Shown here one piece after another: positions 4,174-25,323 of a stretch of DNA of 34,130 bases; the first letter of the stretch is position 1, and the number at the start of each line of letters is the position of its first letter. Origin of the DNA: a virus; the IMG/VR virus record IMGVR_UViG_3300025769_000426, positions 1 to 34,130 of that record, one strand, 5' to 3'. The notes below the pieces were generated by a model that saw only the letters and a list, made by a program, of their open reading frames with translations, was not told where the DNA came from and ran no database searches. The position numbers and the translations under genes were made by a program.

Positions 4174-7100
4174 ATGGATGAGCAACAAAATACTAAACTA
4201 CCATTTGATCCTTCTCGATTAAGCAATAAAGATCTTGATAATCAACATAGTAAATTTCAAAATTATTTAGGAGAAAATATTGGATTACAAGGAGAAGTAG
4301 GCTATGCAGAGGCAAAAAGTCACTATGAGTCTTTAAATGCTGAAAGAGCAAAAAGGATGTCGATTGCTCTACAGGAGCAGACACAAAAAGATCCTAGCTT
4401 GGCTCAACAAATTGATACTATAGGTCGTGGTTTCCAAGAAAAAGGTGTAGATATTATGGGCGCTTTGCCTGATATATCACAAGCTATAGCAAATAGATTA
4501 GGTATGTCCGAGGGTGAAAGTCCTTTTGGTTCAAAAAACCTAAGCAGAAGCCTGCAGGGTCTAGGAGGTGGATATTATAGTTCCGAGCGTTTACCAACAG
4601 CAGATGATTCTAAGCCAAGAATCTTAAACCCTATAACGCAAGCAATATTAGGCGTACAGAGTACATCTGAACCTGCCACACTTGGAGATATGCCATCAAG
4701 GTTACGGCCATATGCCGTAGGTGGAGAGGAGTTGGCTATAGGTATGAGTTTCTTTGCTCCACAAGCGATATCTGCTAGGTTTGCCAAACTTGCACCCACT
4801 CCTGTTGCAATGAGTCAGGGAAGAGGTTTTGCAGTTAAGCAAGCAGTTAATGATCAAGTTCAAGCTTTTGCTAAAAATCCATTAGCATATGCAGGTGTGG
4901 AAACAGGTGTAGCCACACTACAAGCTTTAGGTGGTGGGGTAGCGGAAAAAATAGCACCCGGTAATGAAAATGCAAGGATGATTGGAACATTAGCACCTGT
5001 TCCGCTTGTAGCATCAGGTGGAGTTGCTTTAACTTCTTTCTTAAATTCCATAACAAGAGAAGCTGTACCAAGGACAGCAAAACAAGCTACTAAAGTAGCA
5101 CGTATGTTACTGCAAGGAGATAAGGCAATAGAAGCTGAACTCAGTAAGGAATTAAGTAAATACTTTGCAAAGGTGGATATGAATCCATCAGAAGCTATAA
5201 AAGTTTTAAGTGAAGCAATAAGTAAACAGGGTTTAGTTGAGGGTAAACTACCGGGTACATCTGTAGGCTTATTAACAGGAAACAAGGAGTTACTTGCAAT
5301 TGAATCTGCAATAATAAACAACATTCCTGATGTAAGTGAAGAGGCGGCAAAGGAGGCAAAAAATGCAGTAGTCACACTAAATAATGCTTTTGATAATGTT
5401 TTAAAAATTGAAGGTGCAAATCCTGAAATAGTAAGGGAAATTGCAGATGCTAGAGTGGCTCAAATAAATGCACTTTTTAGCACTAAGATTAGTAATGAGA
5501 TTACTAAAATAAAAAACCTACAAAAACAAGCAAGATTAGTTAAATCGCCAAATGCACCACTTGCAAAACAAAGTAGTGCTGTACAAATCAGAAAGATTAT
5601 AGATAAAAATCTCAAACAACTTGATGATTATGAAACTTCACAATGGAATAAGCTTGATAGAACCCTAAATGCACAAACTAATGAAACTCAATTGGCAATA
5701 TCTAGCCTTATTGACGAAGGGTCTACACCTTTTGTTCCTGAGTCCTTAAGTAAACTTAGGGCAGTAAGAGATATCGGTGAATCCATTGATCCCGTAAAAG
5801 CTAGAGGTGTAAGTTCAGGTGACTTAATCGATGCAAAAAAAGAATTATCGAAAAGAATAAGAGAAGCAAAAAATGCAAACAATCTTCCCCTAGTAAGAGA
5901 GTTAACCATTATGCAAAATGGTGTGTACAATGATTTAAATAAAATCAGTAAAAGATTTGGCGCTCAAATAAGAATAGCAAATGCGGCCACTAGAAATAAA
6001 TATGGTTTTTTGGATATAGATGTTGTATCCGAATTACTTAAAAAAAGTGGTCAAGGTAATTTACCTAAGCCTGATTTGATCTTAGAAAAAAAATTGCTTG
6101 GCGGAGAGCAGTTAGCATACAACACATTTAACGATTTATTAGTAGCAACTAGAGGGCAAATATTGTCTAAAGAAAATGCCAACCCACTAGGTAAGTTTTA
6201 TTTAGCCGCAGTTGATAAAGCTATTGACCCAAATGGATTGGTTGATGCTGATAAATTAAGTACATTTATGATTAAAAACCAAGAAGGTTTAAAAGCCCTT
6301 GGTATGTATGATGCTTTGAGTGAACCCCGTAATCAGGCTTTATTCGTGAAAAAAATGCAAGAATATCATAAGCAAATGAATGAAGCGCCAACACAAAAAA
6401 TTTTACAAAACATTTTAGATACAAAACCAAGTCCTAGAAATTTAAGTGGCGTTAAGGAGTTTATAGATAAAACTTTATTTAGTAGCACTAATAGAAAAAA
6501 AGAATTATTTAAGCTAACAGATTTAATCAAAAGAAAGCAATTCCATAAGCAAGACCCAATTCAAGCTCTTGAAGGTGTACAATATTCTGTACTGCAAAAT
6601 TTGATTAATAAATCTTTTCTTAAAAGAAAGTATACGCCTTATGGAGAAGAGGTAGCAGATTTAAATCTTATAAGTGGTAAAAATATTAAAGATTTGCTTG
6701 AGCAAAAACAAGGCAAGACAACACTCGAACAAGATTTATTATCTGCTAAAATATTCACTAAGGAACAGATTAATTCTATAAAGCTAATGGCAGATAAAGC
6801 TATTGAGCTAGAAAAAAATCTCTTAATTAGAGAAGGCATTGCCCCTAGTGAAGCTGTAGACCTTTTACCCAAAGGTGATGCACTTGCTGATATTATGGGG
6901 AGACTTGGAGGTGTATTTGTCGCACAGGCAAGCCCTATAGTTAGTGGGATTGGACATGAGTTAGTTATTTCATCAATTTTCTCTAAGGCCGGTAAAGACC
7001 TAATGTCTAGATTACCAAAAGATAAACTTAGAAAGGTACTTATTGAAGCTACGAGAGATCCTGTCTTAATGAAAAGACTTCTTGAGGATGTAAAAACGCC

Positions 7101-7458
7101 TAAAGCTGTAAGAAGTAGAGATCAGTATTTCTTAAATGCTATGGTATCTAAGAAAATTCTTTCTGAGCGCGAACGATATGATATTGAAGACTCTGCCTAT
7201 GGTGTTAACAATATAAAAAAGTTACAGGAAGATATTGCATCGTTAGGAAAAAAAGGTCTTTCAGCAAATAGAATTATGGCAGTGTATGAATTAGCCACAA
7301 GAAATAAAAATGAAAATGTTGGGGAGTTTGTGCTAGATCAGGTGCAATCTATTTTAGACATGAGTGACGAGGAAAGGACTAAGATTAGGATGCGTATACC
7401 TAAAAGACCTATTAGGAAACGAATCACTCGACCCAACCTAGAACCAACTAACCCTTGA
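4174..7458 (+). CDS. Very large putative internal virion (ejection) protein, 1094 aa
   Basis: At 1094 aa this is the largest gene in the window. It is Lys/Asn/Leu-rich and largely helical, with long amphipathic stretches (about 320-660 and 790-900). Small-residue-rich hydrophobic segments lie at about 185-300 and 905-940, and the tail is very basic (KRPIRKRITRP near the end). Size, location after two other helical proteins and lack of enzymatic motifs match T7 gp16-like ejection proteins. I see no lysozyme or lytic transglycosylase signature, so if it is a gp16 analogue it lacks the usual peptidoglycan-cutting domain. The start follows the previous stop by 2 bases with no Shine-Dalgarno site (cccgataattATG). 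A terminator follows 65 bases downstream. Confidence 0.5.
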   Translation: MDEQQNTKLPFDPSRLSNKDLDNQHSKFQNYLGENIGLQGEVGYAEAKSHYESLNAERAKRMSIALQEQTQKDPSLAQQIDTIGRGFQEKGVDIMGALPDISQAIANRLGMSEGESPFGSKNLSRSLQGLGGGYYSSERLPTADDSKPRILNPITQAILGVQSTSEPATLGDMPSRLRPYAVGGEELAIGMSFFAPQAISARFAKLAPTPVAMSQGRGFAVKQAVNDQVQAFAKNPLAYAGVETGVATLQALGGGVAEKIAPGNENARMIGTLAPVPLVASGGVALTSFLNSITREAVPRTAKQATKVARMLLQGDKAIEAELSKELSKYFAKVDMNPSEAIKVLSEAISKQGLVEGKLPGTSVGLLTGNKELLAIESAIINNIPDVSEEAAKEAKNAVVTLNNAFDNVLKIEGANPEIVREIADARVAQINALFSTKISNEITKIKNLQKQARLVKSPNAPLAKQSSAVQIRKIIDKNLKQLDDYETSQWNKLDRTLNAQTNETQLAISSLIDEGSTPFVPESLSKLRAVRDIGESIDPVKARGVSSGDLIDAKKELSKRIREAKNANNLPLVRELTIMQNGVYNDLNKISKRFGAQIRIANAATRNKYGFLDIDVVSELLKKSGQGNLPKPDLILEKKLLGGEQLAYNTFNDLLVATRGQILSKENANPLGKFYLAAVDKAIDPNGLVDADKLSTFMIKNQEGLKALGMYDALSEPRNQALFVKKMQEYHKQMNEAPTQKILQNILDTKPSPRNLSGVKEFIDKTLFSSTNRKKELFKLTDLIKRKQFHKQDPIQALEGVQYSVLQNLINKSFLKRKYTPYGEEVADLNLISGKNIKDLLEQKQGKTTLEQDLLSAKIFTKEQINSIKLMADKAIELEKNLLIREGIAPSEAVDLLPKGDALADIMGRLGGVFVAQASPIVSGIGHELVISSIFSKAGKDLMSRLPKDKLRKVLIEATRDPVLMKRLLEDVKTPKAVRSRDQYFLNAMVSKKILSERERYDIEDSAYGVNNIKKLQEDIASLGKKGLSANRIMAVYELATRNKNENVGEFVLDQVQSILDMSDEERTKIRMRIPKRPIRKRITRPNLEPTNP

Positions 7459-12448: not shown

Positions 12449-12519
12449 CAATCTCGATACATAAGTGTTATCAGTATGATTAGTACTAGCATAAAGCATA
12501 AGTATCCTGTGATTGTCAT
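12448..12519 (-). CDS. Tiny membrane peptide, 23 aa
   Basis: This 23-codon ORF (MTITGYLCFMLVLIILITLM followed by YRD) is almost entirely one transmembrane helix. It starts within the stop codon of the upstream regulator gene (ATGA overlap), preceded by AAGGAACTTAGG as ribosome binding site. Its stop overlaps the start of the 40-aa membrane protein. The double coupling supports real translation. Function unknown. Confidence 0.5.
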   Translation of the reverse strand: MTITGYLCFMLVLIILITLMYRD

Positions 12520-12929
12520 CCTAAGTTCCTTTCCAATTTGACTTCCAAATGCTCAACCACTTGAGCCTGTATCTGCTCAACCCTTTGCTTGCTTACTCCA
12601 TGATCATTCCCAATCTCCTGAAATGTTTTCTTGGGCATCTCTTCATCGCTTATTAATTGATGCAATCTGAATGCTAAAACATCTACAACTATTCCAATCA
12701 CTTTTGATTTAATTTTACCCTTAGATGTAAGTGCAATCTTGTTTAAACTTCTGTAAGAAATTAAACTATTCTGAGGGATGTCAAGTTGGGTACTTAAATG
12801 GAATTTAATGTCCCTGATTGGCAACTCATATTTGAGCATTAGTGCTTGGTAAGACATTCGTCTATCCATGAAATCCTTGAGGATTCCTTTCGCTGTTCTG
12901 TTATCTATACTTTTACTAACATATGTCAT
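12516..12929 (-). CDS. Sigma-factor region-4-like helix-turn-helix regulator
   Basis: In this 137-aa protein the C-terminal part (about 100-130, TFQEIGNDHGVSKQRVEQIQ) closely resembles the region 4.2 helix-turn-helix of sigma factors (T-x-x-E-I-G...V-S-x-x-R-V-x-Q-I). The N-terminal 60 residues look like a second short HTH-type domain (DFMDRRMSYQALMLKYELPI). No region 2 is present, so it is not a full sigma factor; it may redirect transcription or act as a DNA-binding regulator. Ribosome binding site AAAGGATAAAAGATT overlaps the end of the Mom-like gene. Confidence 0.65.
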   Translation of the reverse strand: MTYVSKSIDNRTAKGILKDFMDRRMSYQALMLKYELPIRDIKFHLSTQLDIPQNSLISYRSLNKIALTSKGKIKSKVIGIVVDVLAFRLHQLISDEEMPKKTFQEIGNDHGVSKQRVEQIQAQVVEHLEVKLERNLG

Positions 12930-12935
12930 AATCTT

Positions 12936-13583
12936 TTATCCTTTCTTTGGGTAATCTTGTATTTTGTAATTTAGTTTATTCATGTAGTTTTTTCTCTCGG
13001 TTTTACTACCAAGAAAATAAATGTATCTGTGCTTCTGTGGCCGATCTACAACCTTGAACCTATCAGGGTTTGCCTGTCGATATGCCAAGGTGTATCTCTC
13101 TGTAATGGTCTTAGAGTGAAGAGGCTTGGTCGTTTCATAATCCATAAACATGTCATCAGATTCAATCGTCTCCTCAACCATTTGCCATTCTGTTCTCTTA
13201 TCACTCAAGCCTGTGTAAATGAAATTGGTTGCCTGATATACTTTGCCTAAGTGATCCTGACTAGTATCTGCGTAGCTAATAATTATCTTAGGTCTTGGAA
13301 GTAATTTGAATGATCCACCTATCAAATAACTTGCCTCATTCTTGCGATTGTATTTCAAGACCAACCTCTGCAACTCTATTACCTGATGCTTGTATTCCTT
13401 ACCACAAACTCCAATTGTCAATGAGTGACTTGGGGGTGATCCATATAGAATGACTCCGATCAACTCATCCCCATCAAACATCCCAAAATAATGGGATGCC
13501 GATGGAAATCGGTGAGCATAGTGGATATCGATCACAAATGGAGTTACATCCAATCGAGTGACTTCTCGGATCTTATAGTTCAT
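12936..13583 (-). CDS. mom-like: Mom-like DNA-modification protein (GNAT-fold family)
   Basis: This 215-aa protein shows the pattern of the phage Mu Mom family, which converts adenine in DNA to a carbamoylmethyl-type derivative that resists restriction. Visible motifs are YFGMFDGDELIGVILYGSPP (32-51), VIELQRLVLKYNRKNEASYL (68-87) and IISYADTSQDHLGKVYQATN (101-120), followed by FIYTG. The Ser-Tyr-Ala-Asp...His-x-Gly...Tyr-Gln-Ala-(T/A)-Asn signature is the clearest support. No Com-like translational activator is seen beside it. It overlaps the preceding 122-aa gene by 11 bases. The substrate base is inferred from the family, not shown. Confidence 0.75.
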   Translation of the reverse strand: MNYKIREVTRLDVTPFVIDIHYAHRFPSASHYFGMFDGDELIGVILYGSPPSHSLTIGVCGKEYKHQVIELQRLVLKYNRKNEASYLIGGSFKLLPRPKIIISYADTSQDHLGKVYQATNFIYTGLSDKRTEWQMVEETIESDDMFMDYETTKPLHSKTITERYTLAYRQANPDRFKVVDRPQKHRYIYFLGSKTERKNYMNKLNYKIQDYPKKG

Positions 13584-13941
13584 TCTTTAGCCAATCACTA
13601 TACATCCGATTAAGACTATTGAAGTAAAAGTTCACTACCCTTGGTAAAGTCTTGAGGTCACCAACGAGCATCCTATCCATGTGTAGCAGTTCACCTTTCT
13701 CAATCTCAAAGGGTAGTTGCCATTCATCATCCCAACCTAGTGTACATCTGATTTGTAGGTTATGGTTAGGTATCCACCAAGTCCAAGCTCCTGTCATTGA
13801 ATCGATATCAAATCTGAACTCATCTTGGAATACTTGAAAAGATTTACTATCCCTTCCTGTGCCTATGATGATTGGCTCATTACCTAGTTTGAGTAGGAAC
13901 TCTTCGAGTTGAGCGACTAGTTTTTTCTGTTCTTCAGTCAT
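13573..13941 (-). CDS. Hypothetical protein, 122 aa
   Basis: No family recognised. The protein is Trp-rich in the middle (GAWTWWIPNHN, TLGWDDEWQLP), with a helical N-terminus (MTEEQKKLVAQLEEFLLKLG) and C-terminus (NFYFNSLNRMYSDWLKN). It is compact and probably soluble. It ends inside the start of the Mom-like gene, so the two are coupled; an accessory role in modification is possible but not shown. GGGGAA upstream can serve as ribosome binding site. Confidence 0.6.
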   Translation of the reverse strand: MTEEQKKLVAQLEEFLLKLGNEPIIIGTGRDSKSFQVFQDEFRFDIDSMTGAWTWWIPNHNLQIRCTLGWDDEWQLPFEIEKGELLHMDRMLVGDLKTLPRVVNFYFNSLNRMYSDWLKNEL

Positions 13942-18225: not shown

Positions 18226-18327
18226 TAGTGTAAATATACTAACTAGGGGGGGAGGGGGTTAAGGATTGGCTCGGCATAAATATTAATATTCATCACACCC
18301 CCCACAAATTTTTTTCGCTATAGCAAC

Positions 18328-19892: not shown

Positions 19893-20825
19893 ATGTGGAT
19901 AGTCCCCAAAATGTTATCTCAATGTGTACAGGCTACGGAGGGATTGAGCTTGGACTCAGAGGAGCAGGCATGGATGTTAGAACAGTCTGTTACTTGGAGA
20001 TCGAAGTTTATGTCCAAGCTCTATTGGTTAAAGCGATGGAGGAAGGGAGACTATGTACAGCACCTCTGTGGTCTGATGTTAAAACCTTCCCATCATCAGA
20101 GTTTCGTGGAAAAATATGTGGCATCGTTGGAGGATATCCATGTCAGCCATTTAGCTCAGCCGGAAGGAGACAGGGAGAAGAAGACCCAAGGCACTTGTGG
20201 CCACACATCCGAAGACACATCAGGGCAATTAGACCTGTTTGGTGTTTCTTTGAGAATGTCCTCGGACATACCTCGATGGGGTTATGGAGAGTCCTGTCCG
20301 ATTTGGAAACAGAAGGTTACCGATGCGTATGGGGAGTATTCTCAGCGGAAGAAGTTGGCGCACCCCACCAAAGAAAAAGAGTCTTTATCTTGGCCATCTC
20401 CGAGGGCAGGAAATCCGGGGAGTCGGAAACCGGGGACAGGAGGGAAAGTGCTTTCGGAGGAAGCAAAGAGATGGGGGACACCACAGGCAAGCGACCATGT
20501 GGAGGGAGCAAGGACAAGGGTGGACAGTGGTCAGAAGTGTTTGGGAAGGGATTTGAATCGATTAAATTCCCATCAAGACCAAATGAACAACAATACGAAT
20601 GGGAAGCACCAAGAGTCGTGGGCAACACCGATAATGGGGGACGCACATCTCGCAAGCACTCCCGAAGCAGCGAAGAAAAGGTTGGAGGAGGGAAAGAAAA
20701 CACTAAGCAGACAGACAACGGGCAAGCTCAATCCGAATTGGGTGGAGCAATTGATGGGACTTCCCATCGGGTGGACAGACTTAGGCTCTTGGGGAACGGA
20801 GTCTGCCCACAAACAGCAGAATTAG
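19893..20825 (+). CDS. Overlapping reading frame, 310 aa, inside the C5-methyltransferase gene
   Basis: This frame is open for 310 codons across almost the whole methyltransferase gene. It starts with ATG two bases before the methyltransferase GTG (the sequence ATGTG holds both). The product is Trp/Pro/Gly/Lys-rich: LKRWRKGDYVQHLCGLMLKP near 46-65, repeated (S/A)WP(S/T)P and WGTPQASD elements, and an ending GKLNPNWVEQLMGLPIGWTD (about 278-297). From memory, the final motif recurs in phage proteins, some annotated as methyltransferase-associated, so this frame may be expressed. Alternatively the frame is merely kept open by constraint. If translated, a later ATG (such as 20010) could be the real start. 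Confidence 0.5.
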   Translation: MWIVPKMLSQCVQATEGLSLDSEEQAWMLEQSVTWRSKFMSKLYWLKRWRKGDYVQHLCGLMLKPSHHQSFVEKYVASLEDIHVSHLAQPEGDREKKTQGTCGHTSEDTSGQLDLFGVSLRMSSDIPRWGYGESCPIWKQKVTDAYGEYSQRKKLAHPTKEKESLSWPSPRAGNPGSRKPGTGGKVLSEEAKRWGTPQASDHVEGARTRVDSGQKCLGRDLNRLNSHQDQMNNNTNGKHQESWATPIMGDAHLASTPEAAKKRLEEGKKTLSRQTTGKLNPNWVEQLMGLPIGWTDLGSWGTESAHKQQN

Positions 20826-20866
20826 CATGGAGAACTTTATGGCAAAAACTTTCAGAGCAATCCTAA
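19895..20866 (+). CDS. DNA cytosine-C5 methyltransferase
   Basis: The 323-aa enzyme transfers a methyl group from S-adenosylmethionine to C5 of cytosine in a recognition sequence. Motif I is MCTGYGGIELGLRGAG (10-25), motif IV VGGYPCQPFSSAG (78-90, catalytic Cys83) and motif VI FFENV (118-122). Motif VIII is GAPHQRKRVFI (155-165), and motifs IX/X are VDRLRLLGNGVCPQTAELAW near the C-terminus. The region between about 170 and 290, where the target recognition domain lies, is low-complexity and Gly/Ser/Lys-rich, and it coincides with the well-patterned part of the overlapping frame. I take GTG at 19895 as start; an ATG at 19922 would begin right at motif I. No cognate restriction enzyme is evident, so a protective role is likely. 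Confidence 0.9.
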   Translation: MDSPQNVISMCTGYGGIELGLRGAGMDVRTVCYLEIEVYVQALLVKAMEEGRLCTAPLWSDVKTFPSSEFRGKICGIVGGYPCQPFSSAGRRQGEEDPRHLWPHIRRHIRAIRPVWCFFENVLGHTSMGLWRVLSDLETEGYRCVWGVFSAEEVGAPHQRKRVFILAISEGRKSGESETGDRRESAFGGSKEMGDTTGKRPCGGSKDKGGQWSEVFGKGFESIKFPSRPNEQQYEWEAPRVVGNTDNGGRTSRKHSRSSEEKVGGGKENTKQTDNGQAQSELGGAIDGTSHRVDRLRLLGNGVCPQTAELAWRTLWQKLSEQS

Positions 20867-21820: not shown

Positions 21821-22255
21821 GTGAGTAGACCCATATACGAGACACAGGCAGACCTCGATAATGAGGCAAAGGTAAGAAAGTTCCTTTCAAGTGAATGGGA
21901 GTGTAGGTTTATTAAGCTGAATCCTGTTAAGTGGAAGGTAGATTTCTTGGTTCAGAAGGGTAATAAATACAGTTGGGCAGAACTTAAATGCCCGAAGATG
22001 AACTATGGTGACTTTCCGTTTATGATCAGCTACAAGAAGATCGAAGCGGCTAAGTTATTGCATGACACAAGCAAGAAGAAGTTTAATTTAATATACAAAT
22101 GCAAAGATTTGTTATGCTTTCACACTTGGGACTTTGATAAGGAGTATACTTTTGAGTATGGTGGACGTACTGTAAGCACACGTGACCCACAGGATATTGA
22201 GCCTGTATTCCTGATTGATCCAAAGGATTGCACGATAGTGGAGGGGTATGCATGA
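21821..22255 (+). CDS. PD-(D/E)XK-type nuclease-like protein, 144 aa (GTG start)
   Basis: The protein has a conserved Glu in DLDNEAKVRKFLS (Glu15), WKVDFLVQKG (38-47, Asp41) and SWAELKCPKM (51-60, Glu54-x-Lys56). A later YKKIEAAKLL helix is typical of PD-(D/E)XK folds. It may cleave or repair DNA, possibly the host's unmodified DNA; this is an inference from its neighbours (QueD-like, deoxyribosyltransferase-like, DpdA-like). The GTG start at 21821 sits in GTGAGT. Its end overlaps the QueD-like start (ATGA). Confidence 0.65.
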   Translation: MSRPIYETQADLDNEAKVRKFLSSEWECRFIKLNPVKWKVDFLVQKGNKYSWAELKCPKMNYGDFPFMISYKKIEAAKLLHDTSKKKFNLIYKCKDLLCFHTWDFDKEYTFEYGGRTVSTRDPQDIEPVFLIDPKDCTIVEGYA

Positions 22256-22608
22256 AAACTAAAGTAACAGAGAAGTTTACATTTGAGGCGGCTCATAGAA
22301 TAGAGGGCATTGGTAAAGAGAACTCAAGGATACATGGTCATTCGCATGAGGTATATGTTACTATAAGTGGAGAACCTGATGAGCGATATGGGTGGGTTAT
22401 TCCGCATGAAGAGTTTCAAACCAAGGCAGGGGCAATTGTTAAGCAGTTAGACCATACATATTTAAATGAGTTTATTGAGAATCCCACTGCGGAAATGATA
22501 GCTCGGCACTTGTGGTTAAAACTAATGGATAAAAAGTTCCCTGATCATATTACCCTCGAATCAGTCAAAGTCTGTAAGGTTGGTATGTGCGTGGAGGTGA
22601 ATGGATGA
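22252..22608 (+). CDS. queD-like: QueD / 6-pyruvoyl-tetrahydropterin synthase-like protein
   Basis: The 118-aa protein belongs to the PTPS/QueD (6-carboxy-tetrahydropterin synthase) family, which makes the second intermediate of the preQ0 7-deazaguanine pathway. Metal-binding histidines are visible: FEAAHRI (His15) and RIHGHSHEV (His28, His30). The Asp-His pair is in QLDHTYLN (Asp67, His68) and NPTAEMIARHLW follows. The catalytic Cys expected just before HGH is replaced by Asn24 or Ser25, and the conserved C-terminal Glu of the V-x-V-x-E-T motif is Lys109. I chose ATG 22252, with GGAGGGG upstream, over an earlier TTG. Activity is therefore uncertain. Confidence 0.8.
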   Translation: MKTKVTEKFTFEAAHRIEGIGKENSRIHGHSHEVYVTISGEPDERYGWVIPHEEFQTKAGAIVKQLDHTYLNEFIENPTAEMIARHLWLKLMDKKFPDHITLESVKVCKVGMCVEVNG

Positions 22609-23021
22609 TAGAGGCAAAATTAGTCTATTTAGCGGGACCAATCTATGAGCAAGATGACACTTGTATCCGGTGGAGAAAAGCTACGCACAAACTTTTAATG
22701 AAGAAGAATGTAATGTGCATGAAACCTACAGATGCAGATTACCGGGGCAGGGAGACAATTGCAGGAATACCCAAGCAGATTGTAGAGGGAGACAAGAAGA
22801 GCATTATGTATTGCGATACTATTCTAGCTAAGTGCGATCATCCTTCATATGGCACTGCGATGGAGATTTACTTCGCATGGAGTCTTCGTAAGCAAGTCAT
22901 CGTAGTTACAAATTCTTATAGTCCTTGGATTCGCTACCATGCTGATCACATCTTTCCAACATTAGAAGAAGCAATCGAAAATATAGAGTTCCCTGATTTT
23001 GATCCGGGCGTTTCAAAATGA
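22605..23021 (+). CDS. Nucleoside 2-deoxyribosyltransferase-like (DUF4406-type) protein
   Basis: The 138-aa protein opens with KLVYLAGPI (5-13), then has RWRKATHKLL, an Asp at 63 (EGDKKSIMYCD), and HPSYGTAMEIYFAWSL (79-94), the GT-x-x-E pattern whose Glu87 would be the nucleophile. The family cleaves or exchanges the N-glycosidic bond of nucleosides or nucleotides. Flanked by a QueD-like and a DpdA-like gene, it could prepare or recycle bases for DNA modification; this is inference. Start ATG 22605 overlaps the upstream stop and has GGAGGTG upstream; the last codon overlaps the next ATG (ATGA). Confidence 0.7.
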   Translation: MIEAKLVYLAGPIYEQDDTCIRWRKATHKLLMKKNVMCMKPTDADYRGRETIAGIPKQIVEGDKKSIMYCDTILAKCDHPSYGTAMEIYFAWSLRKQVIVVTNSYSPWIRYHADHIFPTLEEAIENIEFPDFDPGVSK

Positions 23022-23659
23022 TTGTGATGCCATCAAATAACGCTAAAGGCATTGTCCATTATTGGGCAGGCCAAGGTTATCCTGTTGGTTGGTTATTTAC
23101 TCCTGAGTCAGCAGTAAGGGAACCTGTGCCTTGGATACCTTATTCGATAGACAACGGCAGGTTTGCAGTTTGGTCATCAGGTAAAAAATGGAACGAACAT
23201 GATTTCCTAAAGATGCTTGATTACTATAACGAAACAATTCTCAAGCCTCGTTTTGTCAATGTACCCGATGAAGTTGGAGATGCTGATGAAACGAAAAGGA
23301 TGTGGGATAAGTGGTATCCAATACTTATCCAATCGTATGATCTTCCTTGGTCTTTCTGCGTACAAGATGGAATGACTCCCGCCGATGTTCCAACCGAAGC
23401 TGATGTAGTATTCGTTGGAGGTACTATGGAGTGGAAATTACGCAACCTAACTATGTGGACAGATGCATTTGAAAGAGTCCATGTAGGAGCAATTAATACC
23501 CTGAAGAATCTTCTGAGGTGCAAGGAATTAGGTGTCGAATCCTGTGATGGTACAGGATGGTTTCGTGGGCCTAAGATGACAGATACTCTTCATCGATATT
23601 TTCGCATTCAGGCGGGAGAGGAAAAACTACCCGAACAAATAGAACTATGCCTAAGATAA
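23018..23659 (+). CDS. dpdA-like: DpdA-like DNA guanine transglycosylase
   Basis: The 213-aa protein carries motifs of the TGT-related DpdA family, which exchanges guanine in DNA for a 7-deazaguanine. I see PYSIDNGRFA (41-50), FVNVPDEVGDADETKRMW (79-96), FCVQDGMTP (113-121), VFVGGTMEWKL (131-141), HVGAINTLKNL (155-165) and ESCDGTGW (174-181). The Asp-Gly-Thr-Gly and the Pro-Asp-x-(V)-Gly-Asp elements are the strongest links. It is much shorter than tRNA-TGT (about 370 aa) and lacks the usual Cys3-His zinc site, as expected for compact phage DpdA proteins. Its end overlaps the terL start by 13 bases. Confidence 0.75.
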   Translation: MIVMPSNNAKGIVHYWAGQGYPVGWLFTPESAVREPVPWIPYSIDNGRFAVWSSGKKWNEHDFLKMLDYYNETILKPRFVNVPDEVGDADETKRMWDKWYPILIQSYDLPWSFCVQDGMTPADVPTEADVVFVGGTMEWKLRNLTMWTDAFERVHVGAINTLKNLLRCKELGVESCDGTGWFRGPKMTDTLHRYFRIQAGEEKLPEQIELCLR

Positions 23660-25323
23660 CTTACGCAGATGAGGTAGATGCCCATTTTGGCATCCCTTGG
23701 TTGGAAGAGTTAGAAATCCGCAAGGGTGAGTTATCATGTGCTTTAAGTGATGAGCAGATTGATCAATTGCCACCTGAGAAGACAGCAATGCTGTCAGATT
23801 TAATTTTACATCAACCAAACTCTGAGAAGGAAGATCCTATACAATGGGGATGGACATTACCCGGTTGGCAAAGGGTGATGGATAATTGGGAGAATGACAA
23901 GATTCATGTTATTTTGGGCGGCAACAGATCGTCCAAGACTATGTTTGCAAGTCGTATGCTAGTTCATTTAGCTCAAACAATACCTGAAGCTGAAATACGA
24001 AGTATGCACGTAACAGAAGAAAGAAGTATATCAGATGCACAGAAATATATATGGCAGAACTTGCCAATGCGGTACAAGAGGGCAAAGAAAAAGAGTGAGA
24101 ATCATTCTCTACAATATAATCAAAAGAATGGATTTAACTCCTCTAAAGCAATATTTCCCCCCACCCAAGAAGGTGCTGAGAGGGGTAGTACGATTTATTT
24201 TAATAACTATCGGCAGTATCAAGCTGATCCTCAGATTTTTGAAGGTTGGTCTGCACACTGCATACACCTTGACGAAGAAGTACCTGAGGCAATTTTTAAT
24301 ACGCTCTTAGGTCGTACAGTTGACTATCATGGTCGACTAATTTTGACTTTCACGACACTTCAGGGCTGGACACCTTTGATCAATAGTTTGTTAAAGGGTG
24401 CTGAAACTGTAAAGACAAGATACTCTGAGATTATGGGTAGAGAATTACCTACTGAACAGATTTGTAAGAATTGGCCTAATTGTAGAATATATTACTTTTG
24501 GACAGAAGATTCTCCGTTTATTGATGGCAAAGAATTAATTAATACATATGCAAGACAACCACAGGAAGTTAAGCTTGCTAGATTATTCGGCATTCCAAGT
24601 AAAGCTGTAGAGGGTAGATTTCCAAAATTTACAAGAGAAACCAATGTTGTTCCACATGAAACAATACCTACTATTATTGATCCTACTATACCATCGACTA
24701 AGTATTTTGTTACTGACCCCGGTGGTTCTAAGCCTTGGGTAGCAATTTGGGCATCCGTATTGGAGGATGGTACTATCTATATTTATAGGGAGTTTCCTGA
24801 TACAAGTATGGGTGATTGGGCATTGCCTCATGTCAATGGAGTTGGTAAGAGTGTAGGCAAAGCGGGTCCTGCTCAAAGACCTCTTGGATGGGGCTACAGT
24901 CAGTATAAAGAGCATTTTGAGGCATTAGAAGGTGGGGAGCATATATTTGAGCGGATTGTTGACCCTCGTATGGGAGCCGCCACAGTCAGGGAGAAGGAAG
25001 GTGAGAGTAATATAATAAATACAATGGCTAATCTAGATTTTGTTATGAGACCTGCCCCCGGTGTTGAAATTGAGTCAGGCATTGCGGCCATAAACAATGC
25101 TTTATCTTGGGATGATACTGAACCAATGACCGAGCAGAATCGTCCTCAGTTGTTTGTGTCAGACAGGTGCGAGAATCTAATAAGCTGTATGCTAGAATAC
25201 AGTGGTCAAAGTAGAGCAGAACACTTTAAAGATTACATTGACACATTGAGATATTTAATGGTAAGTAAACCTGAACATGTTACAGACGCATCACTTGCTT
25301 GTACAGGTGGTGGTGGATATTGA
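23647..25323 (+). CDS. terL: Large terminase subunit
   Basis: The 558-aa protein is the packaging motor ATPase and nuclease. The ATPase has Walker A GGNRSSKT (91-98), Walker B CIHLDEE (205-211) and motif III LTFTTLQGW (233-241). The nuclease domain has FVTDPGGSKPWVAIW (354-368, Asp357), a middle Asp in ERIVDPRMGAA (about 440) and a final one in HFKDYIDTLRYLM. These form the RNase H-like metal site. It overlaps the end of the DpdA-like gene, so base modification and packaging are translationally coupled. The small subunit is not identified with confidence (see 18955-19434). Confidence 0.95.
   Translation: MPKITYADEVDAHFGIPWLEELEIRKGELSCALSDEQIDQLPPEKTAMLSDLILHQPNSEKEDPIQWGWTLPGWQRVMDNWENDKIHVILGGNRSSKTMFASRMLVHLAQTIPEAEIRSMHVTEERSISDAQKYIWQNLPMRYKRAKKKSENHSLQYNQKNGFNSSKAIFPPTQEGAERGSTIYFNNYRQYQADPQIFEGWSAHCIHLDEEVPEAIFNTLLGRTVDYHGRLILTFTTLQGWTPLINSLLKGAETVKTRYSEIMGRELPTEQICKNWPNCRIYYFWTEDSPFIDGKELINTYARQPQEVKLARLFGIPSKAVEGRFPKFTRETNVVPHETIPTIIDPTIPSTKYFVTDPGGSKPWVAIWASVLEDGTIYIYREFPDTSMGDWALPHVNGVGKSVGKAGPAQRPLGWGYSQYKEHFEALEGGEHIFERIVDPRMGAATVREKEGESNIINTMANLDFVMRPAPGVEIESGIAAINNALSWDDTEPMTEQNRPQLFVSDRCENLISCMLEYSGQSRAEHFKDYIDTLRYLMVSKPEHVTDASLACTGGGGY

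Follow-up and report, generated by a model that had tools for sequence, protein, structure and literature searches.

The DNA analyzed here (referred to as the window) is a whole linear virus record of IMG/VR and comprises 34,130 bases. It encodes an SU10-type major capsid protein, a DnaB helicase, a DUF3799 exonuclease and an SSB-like gene. Additionally, a gene of the Mom family of DNA adenine-modification proteins, a C5-cytosine DNA methyltransferase gene and a cassette of a QueD-like, a nucleoside 2-deoxyribosyltransferase-like (NDT-like) and a TGT/DpdA-like gene were found.

The mom gene is located at 12936..13583 on the minus strand and encodes a protein of 215 aa. An initial annotation had called it Mom-like from the signature S-Y-A-D...H-x-G...YQATN. 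This identity was borne out by a match to the Pfam family PF25680 'Mom' (E 1.2e-37, 130 bits, cut-off 27.1) spanning residues 3-213 of 215 and by a match to PHROG 1384 'Mom-like DNA modification protein' (E 4.7e-52). Using phmmer, the protein hit the solved structure of Mu Mom (PDB 8bv8, 'Methylcarbamoylase mom', E 3.1e-9), and tblastn aligned residues 21-213 with the mom gene of phage Mu (29.6% identity, E 2e-7). An alignment of 34 homologues was matched to Mu Mom by hhalign with a probability of 98.5%. Here His21, Tyr22, Asp106 and Tyr116, invariant in all 34 homologues, were placed opposite His48, Tyr49, Asp139 and Tyr149 of Mu Mom in the 231-residue numbering (His58, Tyr59, Asp149 and Tyr159 in the 241-residue record), which we take to be functionally important residues. 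The pair His21-Tyr22 is encoded at 13518..13523 and the signature SYADTSQDHLGKVYQATNF (residues 103-121) at 13221..13277, both on the minus strand. Within the segment of residues 102-121, ISYADTSQDHLGKVYQATNF, the positions D106, H111, G113, Y116, A118, N120 and F121 were invariant in the 34 homologues as well.

Window Mom shares full-length homology, the signature and the conserved residues with Mu Mom (8bv8, PF25680) at an identity of about 27-30%; the N-terminal extension of the Mu protein is missing. Full-length Mom-like proteins with 36-39% identity were found in Listeria phages A511/LP-114, in Proteus and Microbacterium phages and in Roseobacter phage CRP-902, the latter lacking a QueD, unlike the window phage. 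Homologues of comparable length were almost all derived from phages. Compared with eight relatives of 91-98% identity, mom showed an omega of 0.02-0.09, and this strong purifying selection argues that a functional product is being retained. Taken together, the comparisons confirm the predicted product as a full-length, intact relative of phage Mu Mom, which most plausibly modifies adenine.

The gene upstream of mom (13573..13941, minus strand) overlaps it by 11 bp and is syntenic in the relatives L003-L008, and we infer that both belong to the same transcription unit. Six bp downstream of mom starts a gene for a small sigma-70 region-4-like HTH protein (12516..12929, minus strand), assigned by synteny and by a Pfam match below the cut-off (PF04545, 8.8e-5). 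These genes (13.9-12.5 kb) belong to a leftward cluster that starts near 17 kb and is syntenic in L003-L008. The location of mom within such a cluster together with a sigma-region-4-like gene differs from phage Mu, and a com-like regulator as in Mu was not seen adjoining the window mom. A scan for promoters and terminators near mom yielded no more than the shuffle level. Among near-identical phages the sigma-region-4-like gene occurred in two allele classes with ~97% and ~58% identity.

The C5-cytosine DNA methyltransferase gene (19895..20866, plus strand) has a GTG start and matched PF00145 (E 4.8e-32) and phrog_363 (2.3e-55). The claim of a C5 methyltransferase is well founded, since besides the Pfam match the catalytic motifs PCQ, ENV, QRKR and LGNGV are intact in the translation. 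The last of these holds the motif-X Asn, presumably the equivalent of HhaI Asn304. Phage C5 enzymes of the CmoX type are carboxymethyltransferases that carry an Arg at the HhaI Asn304 position (PMC12783734). Since the window protein keeps the Asn, a CmoX-type carboxymethylcytosine was ruled out and ordinary 5-methylcytosine is expected, which the enzyme would probably add at its own sites.

A second protein of 310 aa is predicted in the +1 frame of the methyltransferase gene (19893..20825, plus strand), with a match to phrog_1008 (7e-22). Both start codons overlap in the sequence ATGTG, with the ATG belonging to the 310-aa protein and the GTG to the methyltransferase. The +1 frame was open in 309 of 323 codons, compared with a mean of 161 in shuffles of the gene preserving the protein and the codon usage (n=200), and the observed value was reached in none of them. 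The openness of the +2 frame was at shuffle level. Furthermore, the +1 frame ran almost uninterrupted through the gene in 51 of 52 homologous loci; as these loci share ancestry, the 51 open frames are not independent events. In 40 loci the start overlap read either ATGTG (33) or GTGTG (7).

The substitution pattern fits two overlapping coding frames. Between the window and its relative L115, the values for codon positions 1, 2 and 3 of the methyltransferase gene were 0.077, 0.017 and 0.063, respectively, with positions 1 and 3 being similar and far above position 2. For terL they were 0.018, 0.007 and 0.133, i.e. mainly at position 3. The motifs MWI(L/V/I)P at the N-terminal end and LNPxWVExLMG at the C-terminal end are shared by distant homologues of the +1-frame protein, and the two overlapping frames of Paenibacillus phage Tadhana are each annotated as a methyltransferase. 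An AlphaFold model of the 310-aa protein was uninformative (pLDDT 48, pTM 0.24), and a literature search on the overlap found nothing specific. Judged by its sequence, the methyltransferase gene codes for two proteins along almost all of its length, which may be more surprising than the findings on mom and the cassette. If confirmed by protein detection, the overlap would to our knowledge rank with the longest conserved gene overlaps of tailed phages, and the annotation of a common methyltransferase gene would have to be altered.

The three-gene cassette is 1.4 kb in size and occupies the interval 22248..23647 (plus strand). Its left border is formed by a PDDEXK_14 endonuclease-like gene (21821..22255, plus strand; PF24579, 4.8e-21) and its right border by the large terminase gene (23647..25323, plus strand; phrog_2, 1e-6). 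The order QueD-like, NDT-like, TGT-like did not vary across more than 30 IMG/VR contigs, with the NDT-like gene, which the initial annotation had not mentioned, always between the other two. A sequence alignment revealed an exact empty site: the bases 22248-23647 of the window are missing in L115 and L117, with flanks of 83-94% and 91% identity. In total L115-L119 and L134 had no cassette, although their TerL and portal proteins were ~89-99% identical to those of the window. Conversely, the phages L069 and L070 carried cassette proteins of 95-98% identity next to a TerL with only 31% identity to that of the window. All three genes were under purifying selection, with an omega of 0.03-0.07 where it could be computed.

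In L119 the interval between the PDDEXK_14 and terL genes (about 4230-4790) held a short Mom/GNAT-like ORF (LLSYQDTDVHDGTIYKASGW) replacing the cassette. Together with the methyltransferase gene located just upstream, this suggests that the site is a hot spot for DNA-modification and anti-restriction genes. Judged by these alignments, the QueD-NDT-TGT-like unit is a mobile module at this hot spot.

The first cassette gene (22228..22608, plus strand, probable ATG at 22252) encodes a homologue of the QueD/PTPS T-fold family (PF01242, 6.2e-23). Its score with TIGR03367 was 77 bits and below the cut-off of 89.25. The Zn-binding His motifs AAH and HGH are kept. The catalytic Cys (E. coli Cys27; two E. 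coli QueD sequences differ at this position, with Cys or Ala) is gone, the window reading ENSRIHGH compared with the canonical KCGRLHGH, and cassette copies carry Asn, Tyr or Leu instead. Furthermore, the C-terminal Glu is missing (VKVCK compared with the canonical VKETC). Both losses were seen in all cassette copies compared, including homologues from L064-L102. Based on these residues the cassette QueD is best described as a putative re-purposed T-fold enzyme with an altered active site that is nevertheless under selection. Given this alteration, the joint presence of QueD and DpdA should not be taken to prove 7-deazaguanine in DNA.

The second gene (22587..23021, plus strand, probable ATG at 22605) matched PF05014 (3e-11) and the PDB entry 2a0k (1.7e-4). 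Its GTAMEI aligned with GTAFEV of 2a0k, so the presumed catalytic Glu is kept.

The third gene (23018..23659, plus strand) encodes a short TGT/DpdA-like TIM-barrel protein of 213 aa, whose family conserves the motifs DN(G), PD, QDG, GG and DG(T). It had no match in Pfam or NCBIfam, and a search against PDB sequences yielded no TGT or DpdA match. The AlphaFold2 model was a TIM barrel (pLDDT 72) with the N-terminal 40 residues poorly modelled. The top match of this model in VIA-align was the DNA preQ0 insertase DpdA 7ui4 (Z 10.7, 183 residues, rmsd 4.0); TGTs reached a Z of about 10 and unrelated TIM barrels 10.3 as well. When the broad family was compared with canonical phage DpdA by hhalign, a probability of 62% (E 7.6e-5) was obtained, with the motifs in register (DNG on DSG, PDxVGD on DGIGD and GG on GG), compared with a probability of 3.8% for the narrow family profile alone. 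In Seuratvirus phiG7, Vibrio phage R29Z and Arthrobacter phage Sonali, homologues are accompanied by another protein of the TGT/DpdA type, which argues for a separate short TGT-like family. In phiG7 (L203, 4932-5524) and Escherichia phage SHIN8 the protein is divided between two neighbouring ORFs, adjoining a gene with the annotation 'DNA polymerase beta subunit'.

As many IMG/VR records are fragments, the following fractions are lower bounds: among 48 records with a TGT-like gene or a related methyltransferase only one other had a Mom above the cut-off (the short L119 gene), and among the other Mom-bearing records a QueD or TGT-like protein was found in 0 of 33 and a C5 methyltransferase in 3 of 33. 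In isolated Mom phages the corresponding numbers were 0 of 15 for QueD and 1 of 15 for the C5 methyltransferase (RaK2).

For the jumbo phage PA5oct, multiple Mom-type enzymes and a deazaguanine system have been predicted (PMC7824862), and thus Mom-type and deazaguanine-type genes are combined as in the window phage. It differs by its genome of 287 kb and by two QueD-like genes. The published prediction was partly reproduced; the only match to the Mom profile was below the cut-off and within a frame of 553 aa. In the Queuovirinae phage phiG7 and the similar Vibrio phage R29Z, QueD and TGT-like genes including a homologue of the 213-aa protein are present as in the window. However, Mom is missing from these phages, and in addition to a canonical DpdA-type protein they encode FolE and a Cys-containing QueD, which also keeps the C-terminal Glu. 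Synechococcus phage Ssp-JY42 resembles the window in its C5 methyltransferase, TGT-like protein and short Mom-like ORF, but the latter is a borderline match to Mom (28.6 bits, 149 aa) and QueD is missing. The combination of Mom and cassette is therefore rare yet not unprecedented, considering the predicted precedent PA5oct.

As a whole, the data are probably best explained by stacked, separately acquired anti-restriction modifications, with good support for adenine and cytosine and with a third base as a possibility. Family, conserved residues and selection of Mom are observations on the gene itself, whereas for chemistry, target and timing we infer that the GNAT-fold enzyme would add a methylcarbamoyl-type group to the N6 of the phage's own adenines late in infection. 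Sites modified in this way would no longer be recognised by restriction enzymes of the host. The separate C5 methyltransferase, with its intact motifs, would add 5-methylcytosine. The genes of the cassette between the methyltransferase gene and terL move as a unit and most likely have a joint action on a purine base, which may be a base exchange in DNA. The originally proposed three modification chemistries in 34 kb hence stand for A and C, where modification is likely from sequence evidence; the third would depend on a cassette without the canonical QueD residues. Stacked, chemically different modifications in a genome of ~35-40 kb would show that small phages can beat several restriction types at once.

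Could the cassette instead act on free nucleosides or on host tRNA, leaving A and C as the only chemistries on DNA? We regard this as possible although on balance unlikely. NDT-like enzymes use free nucleosides and TGTs act on tRNA. Furthermore, a roseophage NDT has been interpreted as part of nucleotide metabolism (PMC11981692), and phages that have the pathway without DpdA were proposed to boost queuosine of the host (PMC6884629). However, the cassette lies just downstream of a DNA methyltransferase gene and at a site occupied by a Mom-like gene in L119, which suggests a hot spot for DNA modification or anti-restriction.

A full model, in which Mom acts on A, the C5 methyltransferase on C and the DpdA-like protein inserts 7-deazaguanine (preQ0 or a derivative) in place of G, appears doubtful. 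It would require the host to provide FolE, QueE and QueC, with the phage QueD boosting the flux. The TGT/DpdA-like fold of the 213-aa protein and actinophage homologues annotated as DpdA-like are in line with it, and completion by the host has been proposed for phages encoding part of the pathway (PMC6884629, PMC7824862). FolE, QueE and QueC were not found among the 30 window ORFs scanned against Pfam, the window being a linear record beyond which other modification genes possibly lie. However, neither the catalytic Cys nor the C-terminal Glu is present in any of the cassette QueD copies compared, and the coexistence with a canonical DpdA/TGT in phiG7, R29Z and Sonali argues that the TGT-like family is not simply the inserting enzyme. 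Additionally, phage Orion encodes only DpdA and had no modification (PMC6884629), so DpdA alone is no guarantee of it. Of the QueD/DpdA pair originally proposed, the QueD homologue and the TGT/DpdA-like fold are retained; with the QueD residues missing, the pathway genes absent and a 'DpdA' that is short and divergent, a working 7-deazaguanine pathway was rejected as unproven. Until 7-deazaguanine has been measured, the claim of it should be dropped, and the predicted proteins of the cassette are not a canonical preQ0 pathway.

More speculatively, the cassette may form a new base-exchange system, to which we assign a low probability. The T-fold protein, its active site re-purposed, and the deoxyribosyltransferase would make an unusual base or deoxynucleoside that the minimal TGT-like enzyme inserts into phage DNA; with Mom and the methyltransferase this would give three modified bases in a single small phage, one of them different from any known 7-deazaguanine. 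The exact empty sites provide natural pairs with and without the cassette for such a third chemistry.

With regard to the adenine modification itself, it seems improbable that the Mom-like protein works as a GNAT acyltransferase that transfers a different acyl group, or uses a different substrate, instead of placing methylcarbamoyl on DNA adenine. GNAT enzymes diversify readily and the identity to Mu Mom is low, but the full-length profile match, the four conserved key residues and the almost exclusively phage-derived homologues of similar length speak against it.

A chimeric assembly, with the mom region and the cassette region originating from different phages, is unlikely and can be given very little weight: an exact-pattern search for an independent contig bridging 18.1 kb found none across about 18.04-18.25 kb and no other contig holds both Mom and cassette, but two contigs of a single further sample, L063 and L105, agree with the window at >=99.97% over 2.9-13.0 kb and 23.4-33.7 kb, and the gene order is that of longer relatives such as L080 and L124. 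All other joints were covered by independent contigs with conserved order.

A large gene in the left part of the window (4174-7458, plus strand) encodes a virion-type protein of 1094 aa. It had only 23-31% identity in L002 and L009, compared with 84-97% for most of the flanking genes, and this divergence most readily reads as wholesale allele replacement of one large gene. Between 17667 and 18536 a region of ~0.9 kb without long ORFs was found, with a purine-rich tract (TAGGGGGGGAGGGGGT) near 18245 and A/T-rich stretches, which is possibly an origin or a regulatory region.
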